Source: Gemmatimonadaceae bacterium
GTDB taxonomy: Bacteria > Gemmatimonadota > Gemmatimonadetes > Gemmatimonadales > Gemmatimonadaceae
Length of the DNA: 64,000 bases
NCBI GenBank assembly: GCA_019637445.1
Contig: JAHBVS010000001.1
Span: forward strand, 1,957,586 to 2,021,585
Direction: 5' to 3'
Shown here: positions 20,495 through 28,689 of the stretch, piece after piece
Layout: each line of letters starts with the position of its first letter
How positions within the stretch are numbered: position 1 is the first letter of the stretch
Position numbers and translations under genes: made by a program
The notes under the pieces: model-generated
The model's database searches: none
What the model saw: only the letters and a program-made list of their open reading frames with translations
What the model was told of the DNA's origin: nothing

Positions 20495-23287
20495 ATGCGG
20501 CACACCGCGCGCCTCCTGCTCTTCCTTGGGGCCTTCGCACTCCCGCCGATTCTCGCGGCCCAGGAGCTGCGCGGCACCGTGCGGCTCTCGGCAGCGGGTG
20601 AGCCTGCGGCCGGGGTGATCATCGAGGCGCTACGCAGGGGTAGCGCCGATCGCGTGGCCAGCACCCTGACGGATTCGCGCGGCTACTACATCCTGCACCT
20701 CGTCGCCGGCGAACCGGTGACGGTGCGTGCGCTGCGTATCGGACAGCGGCCCACCATACTCGGCGACTTCACGCTGGCCGCTGGCGAAGTGCGCACCGCG
20801 GATGTCGAGCTCTCTGGCGCGGCGATCGTGCTGGACCGCGTGCGCGTGGTGGGTCAACGCATCTGCGGTCCCAGCAGCGATCGCACGGCGACCGCACTCA
20901 CCCTGCTGGACGAAGCGCGAAAGGCGCTGCGCGCCACGCAGCTGATTTCGACGCAGGGCGAGCTGAGCGCGACCTGGGAGTTGCGAAGCCAGCGCATCAC
21001 CATGCGCGGCGATGCCATTGGCGCGCCGACCCTGCGGGAGTATCGGGGACGCACGAGCCAGCCCTTTGTGAGTCTGGCACCAGACTCGCTTGCTGAGGAC
21101 GGCTATCGACGCGAGCGCGATGGCGAGTCGACCTACTACGCGCCCGATGCCGATGTCCTGCTCTCAGACAGCTTCGTAGCCGGGCACTGCTTCCGCACCG
21201 AGCCGTGGTCGCGCGATGATCGGGATTGGGTCGGCGTCGGTTTCTCGGCGGTCCGCACTCGTCGCGACGTCGTGGACATCGAGGGCACGCTGTGGCTCGA
21301 CCGGCAGAGCGCCGAACTCCGGAGGCTGGAGTACCGCTACTCCAACCTCCCACGCGAGATTCGCGATGCACCGGCCGGCGGTGACGTGCAGTTCCTGCGC
21401 TTGCCAACCGGTGTGTGGCTCGTCGAGCGCTGGGAGATTCGGATGCCGCGGCTGACGGAAACCGAGGAGCCGGTGTTCCGCGGTGGCGTGCAGGTGGGCA
21501 CGACGCGTTCGTCGCGCCTGCGATCTATGGAAGTGGCGGGTGGCGCGGTCCGGGAGATCCGCGGCGACCGCGGCCTGCTCTTCACAACTGTCGGCGCTGA
21601 GACACTGGTCGCACCGAGCACGTCGCCGACAGCGATGGCGGAACTCTGCCCCAACTCGCTCGCCGCCAATGAGGGGTTGCTCTGGGGCGTGGTCAGCGAC
21701 TCAGCTGGCAATCCGCGCTCCGGCGCGCAGGTGCGCGTTGAGTGGCGGCAGAACGCGCGCTGGATCGCGGAGTGGCAACGCAGCTGGGACACGCGCGGGG
21801 TGGTGGCGCGAACCGCGGACGATGGGCTCTGGTTGGCCTGCGGGGTTCCGAAGCGCGAGATCCTGCAGGTGAGTCTGGAGGGCAGCGGTCGGGCGGCGCA
21901 TCCGATCGTCATTCCCCGGGAGGATCTCGGACTTGAGGTCGCCCTAAGCTCGCCTGTGGCTGCGGTGCCGGTTGGTCGTGTCGCAGGGGTTGTGATTGAC
22001 TCGCTGCGCAGAGGTGCCGCGTGGGCCAACGCGCAGTTGCGCGTGATTGGTGGACCCTGGCAGGCGGTGAGCGACTCTTCCGGACGCTTCGTCCTCGATG
22101 GCCTGCCGGAAGGACGCCATCGGATCGTGGTCTTGGACGATGAGCTGAGGACGCTCGGTGTGCCGATGCCCGAGGCGATGGTTGAGGTTCGAGGTGGGCT
22201 GCAGTCCAGCGCGATCGTCGCCTCGCCGACACCCGAGCGGCTCTACGAATCAATCTGTGGAGTGGCACGCGAGCCCGGGCTTGGTGTGATCGTTGGCGAG
22301 TTGCGCGATGTGGCCGGCGTTCGGCGTGCCGGAGTCGCCGTGCAGGCCGAGTGGGTGCGCGCGCTGTTGGGTCCTTCGCGTTCAGAGCAGGATCGACGTC
22401 TGGTCGCCGATACGACCGATGCGGCCGGGCGCTACACGCTCTGTGGAATCCCGGTGGAGGGCGAGGCCGCCAAGTCGGGCGATTTAACCACGTACTTCAG
22501 CGGCGAGGTCTCGCTCAGCGCCAACGCGGGATCGCTCGGCACAGACCCCGTGGGAGTGCGGCTCGACGGGGCGGTGATCCGGCGGCGTGACCTCGTGGCC
22601 GGTGATGCCCGATCGCGCACACGGATCTCCGGGCGCGTGCTGGACCACCTTGGTCAGCCGATTGAAGGCGCCACTGTCGTGGTGGGCGGGCTTGGCGGCC
22701 GCAGCGTGCAGACGTCGGCCGCCGGCGTGTGGGTGATCGATTCGGTGCCAGTGCGCACGACGACCTTGGCAATCCGCGCGCTGCGTTTCTCGCCCTTCGC
22801 ACGCGAGTTGGATCCAATCGGCGGCCGCTTCAACGTCGGTGAGGTGCGGCTGGAGCTCGCGCCGCAGGTGCTGGCGGCAAGCGTGACGACGGCACGGGGT
22901 GGCGGCGGTCCGCAGGCCTGGAAGGCCGAGTTCGAGGAGCGTCGTCGGGCCAGTGCGTCCGGCACATTCATTGACGACGAAGCCATCAAGCGCCAGCCGA
23001 CGCTGCAACAGACGTTCGTGGTGCGGCAGATCTCGAAGGCGCGGCTGAGTTGGGACTCGAGCGGCCGTGGCAAGATCGGCTTCGAGGTCGACTCAGGGAT
23101 GGGCGCGATGTCACTGTGCTATCCACGCTGGTTCATCGACGGCGTGGACTACGGCCAGCCGGAGGCCTTCGAGGAACAGATGTGGTTGGCTCAGGCCGTG
23201 CGCGTGGAGGTCTACAAGGCCACGGAGGCCCCGTCGCGGTACACCGACTTCAATGGTTGCGGCGTGATCCTGATCTGGACGCGCTAG
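20495..23287 (+). CDS. Large exported protein with carboxypeptidase-regulatory and TonB-plug-like domains
   Basis: 930 aa. ATG at 20495 begins a signal peptide (MRHTARLLLFLGAFALPPILAAQ). A CarboxypepD_reg-like fold follows (ELRGTVRLSAAGEPAAGVIIEA.. and SRGYYILHLVAGEPVTVRALRIG). There is a unique middle region with a DADVLLSDSFVAGHCF block, then further Ig/carboxypeptidase-regulatory-like repeats (about 390-480, 510-590, 630-690, 720-800). The C-terminus resembles a TonB plug: CYPRWFIDGVDYGQ ... VRVEVYKATEAPSRYTDFNGCGVILIWTR. No beta-barrel follows, so it is not a complete TonB receptor. It is probably an outer-membrane or surface protein of unknown role. A paralogue lies at 24623. Confidence 0.8.
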   Translation: MRHTARLLLFLGAFALPPILAAQELRGTVRLSAAGEPAAGVIIEALRRGSADRVASTLTDSRGYYILHLVAGEPVTVRALRIGQRPTILGDFTLAAGEVRTADVELSGAAIVLDRVRVVGQRICGPSSDRTATALTLLDEARKALRATQLISTQGELSATWELRSQRITMRGDAIGAPTLREYRGRTSQPFVSLAPDSLAEDGYRRERDGESTYYAPDADVLLSDSFVAGHCFRTEPWSRDDRDWVGVGFSAVRTRRDVVDIEGTLWLDRQSAELRRLEYRYSNLPREIRDAPAGGDVQFLRLPTGVWLVERWEIRMPRLTETEEPVFRGGVQVGTTRSSRLRSMEVAGGAVREIRGDRGLLFTTVGAETLVAPSTSPTAMAELCPNSLAANEGLLWGVVSDSAGNPRSGAQVRVEWRQNARWIAEWQRSWDTRGVVARTADDGLWLACGVPKREILQVSLEGSGRAAHPIVIPREDLGLEVALSSPVAAVPVGRVAGVVIDSLRRGAAWANAQLRVIGGPWQAVSDSSGRFVLDGLPEGRHRIVVLDDELRTLGVPMPEAMVEVRGGLQSSAIVASPTPERLYESICGVAREPGLGVIVGELRDVAGVRRAGVAVQAEWVRALLGPSRSEQDRRLVADTTDAAGRYTLCGIPVEGEAAKSGDLTTYFSGEVSLSANAGSLGTDPVGVRLDGAVIRRRDLVAGDARSRTRISGRVLDHLGQPIEGATVVVGGLGGRSVQTSAAGVWVIDSVPVRTTTLAIRALRFSPFARELDPIGGRFNVGEVRLELAPQVLAASVTTARGGGGPQAWKAEFEERRRASASGTFIDDEAIKRQPTLQQTFVVRQISKARLSWDSSGRGKIGFEVDSGMGAMSLCYPRWFIDGVDYGQPEAFEEQMWLAQAVRVEVYKATEAPSRYTDFNGCGVILIWTR

Positions 23288-23296
23288 CCCAGCCGC

Positions 23297-24496
23297 TCAG
23301 CCCGCCGCCCAGCTCGCCCCCACCGCCCGGATGAAGTTCCCGCCCAGCACCTTCTTGATCGTCGCATCCGAGTGCCGGCGCTTCACCATCGCCTCGGTGA
23401 GATCGAACAACCGCTTCGGATGGTTCATCCCATCCACGTGCACGCCACCGTCCTCCGCGTAGTACGGGTGGTAACGGTCGAAGTTGACCTGGTCGGCAAT
23501 CGCCAGCGGTTGGTTGTCCTTGGGGATCGGCGCACCGATACCGGCCATGTCGAGATCCGAACCAATGCCCACGTGGTCCTCGCCGACGAGCTTGATCACG
23601 TAGTCCACGTGGTCTGCCACGTGCTCGACCGTGACCGGCGCCTGCTGACGGATCATGAAGCGGATGAAGCCGATGCCCATCACGCCACCCTTGGCCGCGA
23701 GCCCCTTGATGGCCTCGTCGGTCTTGCAGCGCGTGTAGCCGGGCATCAACCCACGGGCCGCGGCGTGCGTGTAGATCGGCGGCTTGCTGCAGGCGGCCAG
23801 GCCGTCCATCGTCGTACGGTCGGCGCAGTGCGAGAGATCCACGGTCATCCCGACCTTCTGCATGCGCTCGACGATCTCGTGGCCAAAGATCGTGAGGCCG
23901 CCGTCGTTGTGCTCGAGGAAGCCCGCGCCGATGGTGTTCTGAGTGTTGTAGGTGAGCTGCGCCACGCGCTGCCCGAGTCGGTGGAACAGGTCCACGTCCG
24001 CCGCGCGCCGGAAGTGCAGCGCGTTCTGCGTCGTGATCATGATGCCCACGCGCCCGTCAGGGCGGTTGCTGCGCAGGTCCTCCACGTCATCCACGCGCGT
24101 GAAGAACTCGTTGCGCGAGGCAATGAAGCCGTTCCACTCAGCCATGAACTGCAGCATCGCCTCATAACTGTTCGCGCCACGGCCCAAGGCCAGCGTCTTC
24201 ACGCCGGATCCCTTGAACGCCGCGAAGTCCTCGGCGGTGAAGCTCGTGGGGTCCTGCAGCCAGCGGATGGCGCGCGGCGTGCCTTCCTCGCGATTGTCGG
24301 GGAAGGCGAACTGGCAGAGCATGTCCACCACCGGCGATTCTGTCATGAGCCGGATGGTGCGCGCCGAGTAGTCGTCGGTGAAGGGGCCGAGTTGGTAGCG
24401 ACCCTTGAGGATGGCCGGGGCGGCGAAGGCCGGGCGCGGCAGGAGGCTCGCGGCAGAGGCGCCGGCGAGGAGACGAAGAAGGGTTCGGCGTTGCAT
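23297..24496 (-). CDS. Exported membrane dipeptidase (peptidase M19)
   Basis: 399 aa, ATG at 24496. The N-terminus MQRRTLLRLLAGASAASLL looks like a twin-arginine signal. The M19 (renal dipeptidase) fold follows: DMLCQFAFPDN in the place of the first metal site, HNDGGLTIFGHEIVERMQKVGMTVDLSHCADRTT, YTHAAARGLMPGYTR, and VGIGSDLDM. The typical first HxD is partly changed (VVDMLCQFAF), so zinc ligation should be checked. The family hydrolyses dipeptides, often with D-residues. It is convergent with the paralogue upstream (9-bp gap) and divergent from the one downstream. Confidence 0.85.
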   Translation of the reverse strand: MQRRTLLRLLAGASAASLLPRPAFAAPAILKGRYQLGPFTDDYSARTIRLMTESPVVDMLCQFAFPDNREEGTPRAIRWLQDPTSFTAEDFAAFKGSGVKTLALGRGANSYEAMLQFMAEWNGFIASRNEFFTRVDDVEDLRSNRPDGRVGIMITTQNALHFRRAADVDLFHRLGQRVAQLTYNTQNTIGAGFLEHNDGGLTIFGHEIVERMQKVGMTVDLSHCADRTTMDGLAACSKPPIYTHAAARGLMPGYTRCKTDEAIKGLAAKGGVMGIGFIRFMIRQQAPVTVEHVADHVDYVIKLVGEDHVGIGSDLDMAGIGAPIPKDNQPLAIADQVNFDRYHPYYAEDGGVHVDGMNHPKRLFDLTEAMVKRRHSDATIKKVLGGNFIRAVGASWAAG

Positions 24497-24622
24497 CGGG
24501 CGAATGTGCGGCCTAGGGCGCCACTCTTCAAGTCGTGGAGGCCTAGGCCCTATGGTGTGCTCTCTTGACAGCAATCGTCCACACTCCAGTGTAGAGACAA
24601 CAACGTCAGCGCGAGGAGAGGG

Positions 24623-27394
24623 ATGCGCGTTTGGGCTGCGGCCGTACTAGCACTCCTATCGACCGCCGTGGCCGCGGCCGGTCAGGAGCTGCGCGGCACG
24701 CTGTTCACCAACGACTCGCTCCACACTCTCAGTGGAGTGCTGGTTGAAGCCACTGACAGGTCGGGGGCGCGAGCGGCCGTATCTCTCTCGGACTCGCGCG
24801 GGAAGTTCGTGCTTTCTCTGCCCGCGGGCCGGACGCTGTCTCTCCGGGCATTGCGCATCGGGTATCGCCCTGCGGCTCTTGGAGAGATCGAGCTCGCACC
24901 TGGCGACACTGTGGAGCGCGCGTTCTACGCGTCAGCGGCCGCTATCGTACTCGATGAAGTCATGGTCGCCGAGTCCCAACGCTGCGGCAGACTCGGCGAG
25001 AGCGGCCGTCGTGCGGCGACGCTGTTCGGCGAAGCTCGCAAGGCGATCGAGGCGTCGCGGCTCGAAGCTGGAGGCGCAGAACTGAGCGCAGTATGGAGCC
25101 TCTACAGCCGACGGCGGGCCTTGAACGGTCGGCCGCTGGGAGAGGCGCAACAGCGCCAGTATGAAGGCTCGACCGCTCGACCGTTCGCCAGCGCGCCCGC
25201 CGACTCGCTCGAGGCGCATGGGTACGTTCGTGAGATCGACGGCGAGATGCAGTTCTTTGCGCCTGATGCCGATGTCTTGCTCTCGGACTCCTTTGCTCGC
25301 ACGCACTGCTTCCAAGCCGTCGACGGCGAGGGCCCGCGCGCCGGCCAGGTTGGTGTGGCGTTTCGGCCGGCCCCTGAGCGCCGCAACCTGCCGGAGATCG
25401 CAGGCACGTTCTGGCTGAATGCCAAGACACTGGAGCTCAATCGGCTTGAGTTCGAGTATGTCGGACTGCCGCCTGTGTTCTCAGGTCGGACGGCTGGAGG
25501 CGACGTCGGATTCGCGAAGCTGAGCACCGGTAGCTGGCTCGTCGGTGAATGGAGCATCCGAATGCCGCGCGTCAGCGTCGGGATGGAGCGCGTCGTGGGC
25601 AGAACGAGCCGCCCGATTACGCGAGTCCGTTCGCTCGAGGAAACGGGCGGCATCGTGCAGGCCGTCCGGCTCGGCGGCCGCGTCGTGCTCGAACGTCGGG
25701 AGACGGGAGACTTCGATGCACCTGCGCTCGACGCTGAGACGGTCGCGCTGCTTTGCCACTCGCCGCTAGGGGCGCGAGACGCGGTGGTCTGAGGCACGCT
25801 GCGAGATGCGAGCTCATCGTCCACGGAAGGTGTCACCGTGAGGGTCCGAAGCTTGACCGCCGTTCAGGGCGTTGCCCCTACGCGGGAGTGGGAGGCGGTC
25901 ACGGAGCGTGACGGATTCTGGTACGTCTGTGGAGTGCCGCGCGGTGTTGTCTTGCGCGCTGACGCCGCCCTGTCAGGTCGGCGCGTTGTGTCGAGCTACG
26001 AGCTCGTCCCGGCTTGGGACGGAGGGGCGGAGATCGGCTTGGAGGCGACGGCCGAGCTCGAAGGCGACTCGCGGGCTCTGTCGGGGGTTGCCTATGACTC
26101 CCTCCGCAACGACTCGCCGTGGGCAGGGGCGCGTGTCGCCGCCCTGGGCACCGGCATCGCAGGCCAGACGAGCGACTCCGGAGAGTTCACGTTAGCGGGA
26201 GTGCCTGAGGGTCCGCTGCGTCTCGCGATATGGGACGATCTCATTCGCGATCTCGGATTACCGCCAGTTGAACTAACGGTTGATCCAGCGTCGACGGAGT
26301 TGCCTCGAGTCGTCGTGGTCCTACCCAAGACTGTCGCAGGTGAGGCAGTCGCATCAACAGAAGGTGCGCGTTGCGTGCTCGGGCGCGTGGTCGACCCTCA
26401 AGGCACCGCGCTGCGAGATGCGACAGTCCGCGTCAGGTGGCGCCGTCTGACGCGAACGGGGGAGACGTGGTCGGCCAGTTCTCCAGAACTCGAGACTCTC
26501 ACGGGCGCTGACGGCCGATACGTCGTCTGTGGACTCCCGCTCTCAGACGCTGCGGAAGGAGTAATCGACGGAGCCTTTGCCATCAACGTCACGGTGGGCG
26601 GACGCGATGGCATAGTGGTGGGCCTGGACTTGACCGAATCTCGCGTGTCCGCGCGGAACATCACGCTTGGAGGACCCGACGATGTCCGTGCGATTGCCGG
26701 ACGTGTCGAGTCGGGCGTTGGCGCGCCGCTCGCCGACGCACTCGTGAGCGTGGTGGGGGTCGATTCTCTGTGGGCGCGCAGCGGACCTGACGGCATGTGG
26801 CAGATCCCGCGGGTGCCACTGCGCAGTGCTCGGCTCGAAGTTCGGGCGGTCGGTTACGCTCCCGTTGAGTTCGATGTCGAGCCGGTAGGATCGAGCTTCC
26901 CGGAGGCGGCGGTACGCCTTGTGCCCGCTGTTCAGTCGCTTGCAGCTGTCACGGTGACCGCGAGGGCGAGCGCGCTCGGGTATCGCGAAGCGTTCGAGGA
27001 CCGCCGCAAGTCCTACTCCTTCGGGACTTTCTTCGACGACTCGCTCTTGGCGCGACAATCGTACGTGACTTCCGATTTCATCATCTCACGGGTTTCAAAG
27101 GCGCGCGCAGCGACAGCGGGCGCCCGCGAGAACTCCCGAAATGACCCGAAGGCACGCCTTATCCCTCCCGGCCAGAAAAAGATCGCCTTCGAAGTTGACG
27201 CTGGCTTCGGCGCGATGTCGCTCTGCAATCCACGCTGGTTCATCGATGGCGTGGATTTCGGCATTCCATCCGCCGCGGAAGAGGAAGTCTGGCTTCGCCA
27301 GGCAAAGCGCATCGAGGTGTACAAGGCCTCCCTCGCTCCTGCGCAATACAACGACTTCGATGGCTGCGGCGTGATCCTGATCTGGACGCGCTGA
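24623..27394 (+). pseudogene. Paralogue of the 20495 gene, interrupted by one in-frame TGA
   Basis: One continuous 924-codon frame from ATG 24623 (Shine-Dalgarno GAGGAGAG at 24613-24620) to a stop at 27394, broken only by a TGA at 25790-25792 (codon 390). On both sides the frame aligns with its neighbour: signal peptide, QELRGTLFTNDSLHTLSGV, DADVLLSDSFARTHCF, and the end CNPRWFIDGVDFG ... GCGVILIWTR. At the TGA the intact copy has TGG (Trp397, in LLWGVV), so a single G-to-A change explains it. No frameshift is present. It may be a recent pseudogene, a sequencing error or readthrough. A GTG at 25838 could restart translation, but without a signal peptide. Confidence 0.8.
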
Positions 27395-27405
27395 CCCGCG
27401 GCCCG

Positions 27406-28689
27406 CTATCGCACCGTCTGCGTCTTCCGCTTGAGAAAGTCCATCAGGATGAACTGCCCCAGCGTCATCGTGTTCGTGAAGTACGCCCGCCCGCGAGTAA
27501 TGGCACTGACCATCTTCACGAACTCCACCAGCGCGCGGTCCCGCGCCAGCATGAACGTATTCACCGGAATCCCACTCCTCCGGCAGGCCGCAACCTCCTG
27601 CAGCGTCTCCTGCAGCACGAAGGCATCGAGGCCCATCGAGTTCTTGTAGATGCGCCCGTCCGGCATCGTGAGCGCCGACGGCTTGCCGTCGGTGATCATC
27701 ACGATCTGGCGCATGTCCTTCTTCTGCGCCATCAACAGCCGCCGCGCCATCTTCAGCCCCTCGGCCGTGTTCGTGTGATACGGGCCGACCTGTGCCTTGG
27801 CCAGCGCGCCGATGGGGATCTCCTCCGCCGAGTCGTGGAAGAGGATGACCTTGATGCTGTCGCCGGGGAACTGCGTGTTGATCAAGTGCGTCAGCGCCAG
27901 CGCGACCTTCTTGGCCGGCGTGAAGCGGTCCTCGCCATAGAGGATCATCGAGTGTGAGCAGTCGAGCATCAGCACGGTCGCGCAGCTGGATCGGTACTCG
28001 CTCTGCCGCACCATCAGGTCGCCGTACTCGAGGTCCATCGGGATGTCGAGGCTGCCCGTGCGCAGCATCGCGTTCTTGAGCGTCTCGTTGACGTCAAGGT
28101 TGAGCGTGTCGCCGAACTCGTAGGGCTTGCTGCCCGCGTCGGCCTCGATGCCGGTGGCAAGGTAGGGCGTGTCGTGCGAACCGAAGTTGCTCTTGCCGAA
28201 GCCGCCGAGAATCCCGCGCAGGGACTTGTAGCCGAGGAAGTCGATGCCCTTGGACGTGAGGTCGAACTGCACGTCCTGCGCCGCGGCCTTGGCCAAGCCG
28301 CCAGGCCCGAACACGCTCTCGTGTCCGGCGGGCGCCTTCGGTGGCTCGCTGGCCTTGAGATAGCCCTCGGCCATCAAGCGCTGCACGATGTCATCAAGCA
28401 GCTTGGCGAGCTTCTCCTCGGAGATGTCGTCGCCGTCGCCGCGCAGGGCGTCGAGCATCTCGGGCGTGAACTGCCCGCTCTGGATCAGCGCGTCGAGGAT
28501 GGCCTGCTTGAGGGCGTCGAGGGAGCGGTCGCCGCCCTGGTCGTCGTCTTCGTAGCCCCAGGGATTCGCGGGGCCGCCGCCGGCGAATCCGCTCTGCAGG
28601 AGAAAGTCGGCCAGGTTGTCGAGCAGGGACTGCAGGTCCACGGCATCCGCGGACTCGGGGCTGAACTTCTTGTAGGTGTGGAACCGCAT
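27406..28689 (-). CDS. VWA-domain protein (partner of a MoxR/ChlI-type ATPase)
   Basis: 427 aa, ATG at 28689 with a GGGAGG-type Shine-Dalgarno site and a TAGCTT hexamer about 24 nt upstream. The N-terminal half is helical and acidic with a Gly-rich linker. The C-terminal half is a von Willebrand A domain with a complete MIDAS: DCSHSM (DxSxS), a Thr in YHTNTAEG and MITDGKPS. It is soluble, without a signal peptide. VWA proteins of this kind work with AAA ATPases of the type encoded at 30935-32395, as chelatase or chaperone pairs. Here the two are separated by two unrelated membrane transporters. The target protein is unknown. Confidence 0.85.

Follow-up and report, generated by a model that had tools for sequence, protein, structure and literature searches.

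The question raised by this locus is whether an in-frame TGA (25790-25792) inside an otherwise open gene ends translation, reflects an error in the assembly, or is decoded as an amino acid. It lies in a window of 64,000 nucleotides, the whole stretch of DNA analysed, from a Gemmatimonadaceae bacterium. The most probable answer, at roughly two chances in three, is that one of two neighbouring paralogues was recently truncated by a nonsense change of a single base. The interruption looks like an ordinary loss-of-function change rather than a novel use of the genetic code. The features of the locus are listed in Table 1.

Table 1. Features of the interrupted gene and its neighbours (positions are those of the window).
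Feature	Positions	Strand	Basis
Intact adjacent paralogue, ending in TAG	20495-23287	+	
TGG (Trp397) of the paralogue, aligned with the internal TGA	21683-21685	+	
Peptidase family M19 (membrane dipeptidase) gene between the paralogues	23297-24574	-	PF01244, 1.7e-64
Interrupted gene, 924 codons including two TGA stops	24623-27394	+	
ORF of the truncated product, 389 aa, hydrophobic N-terminal leader	24623-25792	+	ORF list, leader hydropathy
N module, residues about 8-349	24644-25669	+	HMM made for this analysis
In-frame TGA, codon 390, first strand of the next CarboxypepD_reg-like repeat	25790-25792	+	
Downstream part in the same frame, 533 codons, open up to the terminal TGA	25793-27391	+	
First possible restart codon past the TGA (GTG), GGAAGG just upstream	25838-25840	+	
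C module, residues 485-923, CarboxypepD_reg repeats and a conserved end	26075-27391	+	HMM, Pfam

The internal TGA is the sole stop within 24623-27391, and no frame change is present; the open parts of 389 and 533 codons share one frame. This confirms the original prediction, which described a single in-frame TGA in a 924-codon frame with no further stop before the terminal one. Its statement that both sides align with the neighbouring paralogue also holds (39% identity over residues 17-923), as does its reading of the paralogue codon opposite the TGA as TGG. Two same-frame parts that match one paralogue end to end are not a product of chance. Over 20495-27394, the two paralogues on the plus strand flank the M19 dipeptidase gene on the minus strand.

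Both paralogous proteins contain CarboxypepD_reg repeats. Against PF13620, the paralogue scores 116 and the downstream half of the interrupted gene 74.1 bits, above the gathering score of 32.3, and the N half falls just below it (30.6 bits, 4.3e-07). The N module comprises one such repeat, followed by a region that matches no named family. The repeats in both halves and in the paralogue resemble those of multi-repeat secreted proteins with CarboxypepD_reg (PF13620) domains; in contrast, Pfam and NCBIfam searches gave neither half a named family apart from the repeat models. The paralogue alone matches an S-layer model, at 26 bits against a model cut-off of 1400 bits. The C-terminal segment may resemble a TonB plug, and a Pfam search of 26951-27391 returned no match. 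Structure prediction for the 389-aa product, made from two sequences, reached a mean pLDDT of 54.7. A scan of 23200-27700 found four terminator-like sites, where 2.4 were expected, and no promoter-like site.

The original prediction regarded the lost codon as a conserved Trp, and this part is wrong. The residue was surveyed in relatives, in 52 distinct frames that contain the whole N module; these do not count as independent, and rows with low scores may match up different repeats. The TGA is placed directly before a Gly of the repeat strand, and 23 of the 52 frames have that Gly right after the aligned residue. These 23 residues comprise Arg (8), Leu (3), Val, Glu, and Thr (2 each), and Gln, Ala, Ile, Tyr, His, and Phe (1 each), with Trp in none, so a conserved Trp at this position was rejected. 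The other 29 rows were excluded, 18 because they are unaligned and 11 because they align elsewhere (3 Trp, 6 Tyr, 1 Arg, and 1 Glu, none with the following Gly). The three Trp-aligning rows have low scores (41, 38, and 32) and probably represent a different strand. The stop-site residue varies across the relatives, with Arg the commonest. Codons were inspected for 14 of the 23 relatives, where the eight Arg codons are CGC (six) and CGG (two). As all 14 are more than one change away from TGA, the TGG of the paralogue stays the best single guess for the earlier codon, as first proposed; it comes from the paralogue only and is not secured by conservation in the family. The lesson is that the residue of one paralogue should not count as conserved.

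A module census of the relatives, excluding the gene itself and duplicate frames, found N and C modules fused in 4 frames, and N plus repeats without a full C module in 18. Among these 18, L009, L010, L011, and L026 reach the end of the C module with fewer repeats, and L015 is open at its 5′ end. The N module stands alone in 3 frames and is cut at the frame end in 1; the C module stands alone in 17 and follows a different N-terminal part in 1. The two modules therefore occur fused, partly fused, or as separate genes, and many genomes have several copies. The family is a shuffling, multi-repeat one, in which Pfam and NCBIfam name nothing beyond the repeat. Natural N-only ends are found in 4 of the 52 surveyed rows (L023, L032, L033, and the second frame of L142) and in L083, and the N-only proteins terminate 2-19 residues past the N module. 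L132 also terminates past the module, but at the edge of its locus, and was excluded from the count. The existence of natural N-only relatives means that the 389-aa product has a natural domain content. As an after-the-fact remark, the stop lies about 40 residues past the N module.

The leader of the truncated product has a hydropathy of 2.27, by a crude measure taken on stop-to-stop frames. This falls within the range of 1.62-2.98 for the C-only relatives, all 17 of which have a hydrophobic leader, and export of the 389-aa protein is therefore probable. It is highly unlikely that the stop has turned the gene into a pair of working genes, with the GTG at 25838 as the start of the second. Separate N and C genes in relatives (the C-only frames, and the N frames without a full C module) and the GGAAGG just upstream of the GTG are in line with such a split. 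In contrast, the restart product would begin inside a repeat and, at a hydropathy of 1.17, would lack the hydrophobic leader of the C-only relatives, so a working product from this codon is unlikely.

The downstream part was originally described as otherwise undamaged, and hence as evidence of a young event or an error. The single interruption and the conserved columns support this. Among the C-module columns that are at least 90% conserved across 28 relatives, the interrupted gene and the paralogue each keep 22 of 23, and all 14 invariant columns are kept. The corresponding N-module figures, for 53 relatives, are 31 of 32 in each paralogue and 8 of 8. At the 80% level, the interrupted gene keeps 26 of 32 C-module and 43 of 48 N-module columns, and the paralogue 28 and 42. 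Conservation downstream is thus like that of the intact paralogue, which indicates a young lesion or a base error. An undecayed downstream half is also expected under functional read-through.

Outgroups are nearer to the paralogue in 18 of 22 comparisons of the C module (3 opposite, 1 tie; sums 940 to 1044) and in 15 of 26 of the N module (10 opposite, 1 tie; sums 909 to 970). This slight lean, somewhat stronger downstream, could be a first sign of relaxed constraint. Third-position GC in the two halves is 0.743 and 0.709 in the interrupted gene, against 0.811 and 0.794 in the paralogue. Since the shifts in rate and in third-position GC touch both halves, there is no clear decay limited to the part past the stop. 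The 1599 downstream bases offer 157 single changes that would make a stop. A 5% chance of finding no second stop would be reached at about 0.057 neutral substitutions per site, or at 0.023 if 0.05 frameshifts per substitution are assumed; both are upper bounds under neutrality and not dates.

UGA is not reassigned wholesale in this genome, since RF2 is present (498.7 bits) and the terminal stop of the same gene is also TGA. Among 45 tRNA matches and the tRNA-Sec, only the latter has a UCA anticodon, the tRNA-Trp has CCA, and no suppressor tRNA for UGA was found. On these grounds, reassignment of UGA to Trp was rejected. The selenocysteine machinery was searched for as tRNA-Sec, SelB, and selD, and all three are present. 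The tRNA-Sec (C3:264487-264579, 75.3 bits, anticodon TCA) lies about 130 bases past the match of selD (C3:263445-264359, 384.4 bits), and SelB (C3:206986-208803, 338.9 bits) is about 55 kb away. A single TGA interrupts the selD frame, at C3:263475 (context RCAG-TGA-ASKMGP), and a hairpin directly follows it. This TGA (positions 1531-1533 of L095, G000:C3:263475) is a probable selenocysteine codon. From these genes, UGA is very probably in use as selenocysteine in the cell, and recoding at the internal TGA was therefore tested.

Decoding of the internal TGA as selenocysteine is extremely unlikely, even though the cell encodes the tRNA, SelB, and a TGA-bearing selD beside the tRNA. The gene shares its codon and a cell equipped with the machinery with bacterial selenoproteins (UGA, SECIS, SelB) such as the selD of this genome. 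It differs from them in the lack of a detected SECIS-like hairpin (by a weak test), of an aligned Cys, and of an active-site context. No stabilised hairpin follows the TGA, as the native sequence of 25787-25850 folds no better than 196 of its 200 shuffled versions (z +2.00), and an Rfam search of 24300-27700 gave no match. A crude SECIS-type score of -10.5 was equalled or bettered by 300 of 400 control TGAs. This score is weak evidence because it separates poorly in GC-rich DNA; selD itself is unexceptional (-15.7, with 123 of 400 control TGAs as good). According to PMC1794560, selenocysteine occurs in the active sites of oxidoreductases; it is also described as interchanging with Cys. Cys is absent at the stop site from all 34 of the 52 rows with an aligned residue, and the TGA is located in a strand of a repeat, where no redox motif adjoins it. 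Formate dehydrogenase alpha matches in the genome have no internal stop. Read-through, one of the options originally named, thus retains the encoded selenocysteine machinery in its favour and lacks a selenocysteine signal at this TGA. The locus is mostly a clean control: a TGA in a genome equipped for selenocysteine can resemble an ordinary nonsense change.

Another form of read-through, in which UGA is leaky through near-cognate tRNA-Trp and yields enough full-length protein for selection on the downstream part, is quite improbable. The C module is conserved, and PMC7918605 describes that two enterobacteria decode UGA as Trp at a very low level and that many in-frame stops in bacteria have purifying selection acting around them. 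Against leakiness, no stimulatory structure was seen past the TGA, the genome search found no suppressor tRNA, and a young age accounts for the conservation without read-through. All forms of read-through together are improbable. It is very doubtful that a decoded UGA, by selenocysteine through an unrecognised signal or by regulated leakiness, gives N-only and full-length proteins from one gene, although these products would match two architectures found in relatives. Should read-through occur, the gene would switch a surface-type protein between two natural architectures.

An error of one base in the assembly, with the gene intact in the organism, is unlikely, and ranks next after a real mutation: with one genome and a best relative at 42% identity (N module only, among the matches listed), base error and mutation look alike. 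Two scans of a collection of named genomes, which may leave out the genome of the window itself, turned up no other strain. The TGA is the only lesion, and conservation in the downstream half is on a par with the paralogue, which is intact. With E up to 1e-45 and the best five candidates per genome, the family search had a match in 56 of 179 family genomes, and among the matches listed this TGA is the only stop inside a match. These points are consistent with an error. Against it, the assembly is apparently of good quality (7 contigs, 100% complete, 0.16% contamination), and isolated substitution errors are generally less common than true nonsense changes.

The preferred reading, a recent nonsense change, suggests the following course. 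A single-base change would have hit one of two paralogues for a secreted, multi-repeat CarboxypepD_reg protein, and RF2 would terminate translation at the TGA. The cell would then make and export a 389-aa protein ending past a complete N module, which may retain some function, like the natural N-only relatives. The C module would be silent, as a restart product would carry no export leader. The intact paralogue may make this loss tolerable.

The interrupted gene is comparable to young single-nonsense pseudogenes or truncated alleles in its one in-frame stop, its intact frame and conserved residues, and its intact paralogue; here, the case is known from one genome only. It shares with the selected read-through stops of PMC7918605 a conserved sequence that continues beyond the stop. 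That work relied on stops shared in position among orthologous genes, together with dN/dS, whereas no orthologue sharing the TGA at 25790-25792 was found. A literature search that combined Gemmatimonadota with pseudogenes and stop codons returned no papers.

A codon-usage scan of 464 kb for interrupted genes gave 42 candidates, with coding and other frames poorly separated, and missed the gene at 24623-27394. Another homology search found at least five further matches with a stop. In L083, L086, and L087 the stop is at the end of an N module, and in G027 it comes after N plus repeats. L085, from another genus (G059:C57:318000-322500, minus strand), is a decayed relic, in which the start of the N module is absent from the frame and a TAG interrupts the module. 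The stop of at least one relative is therefore beyond a selenocysteine explanation.
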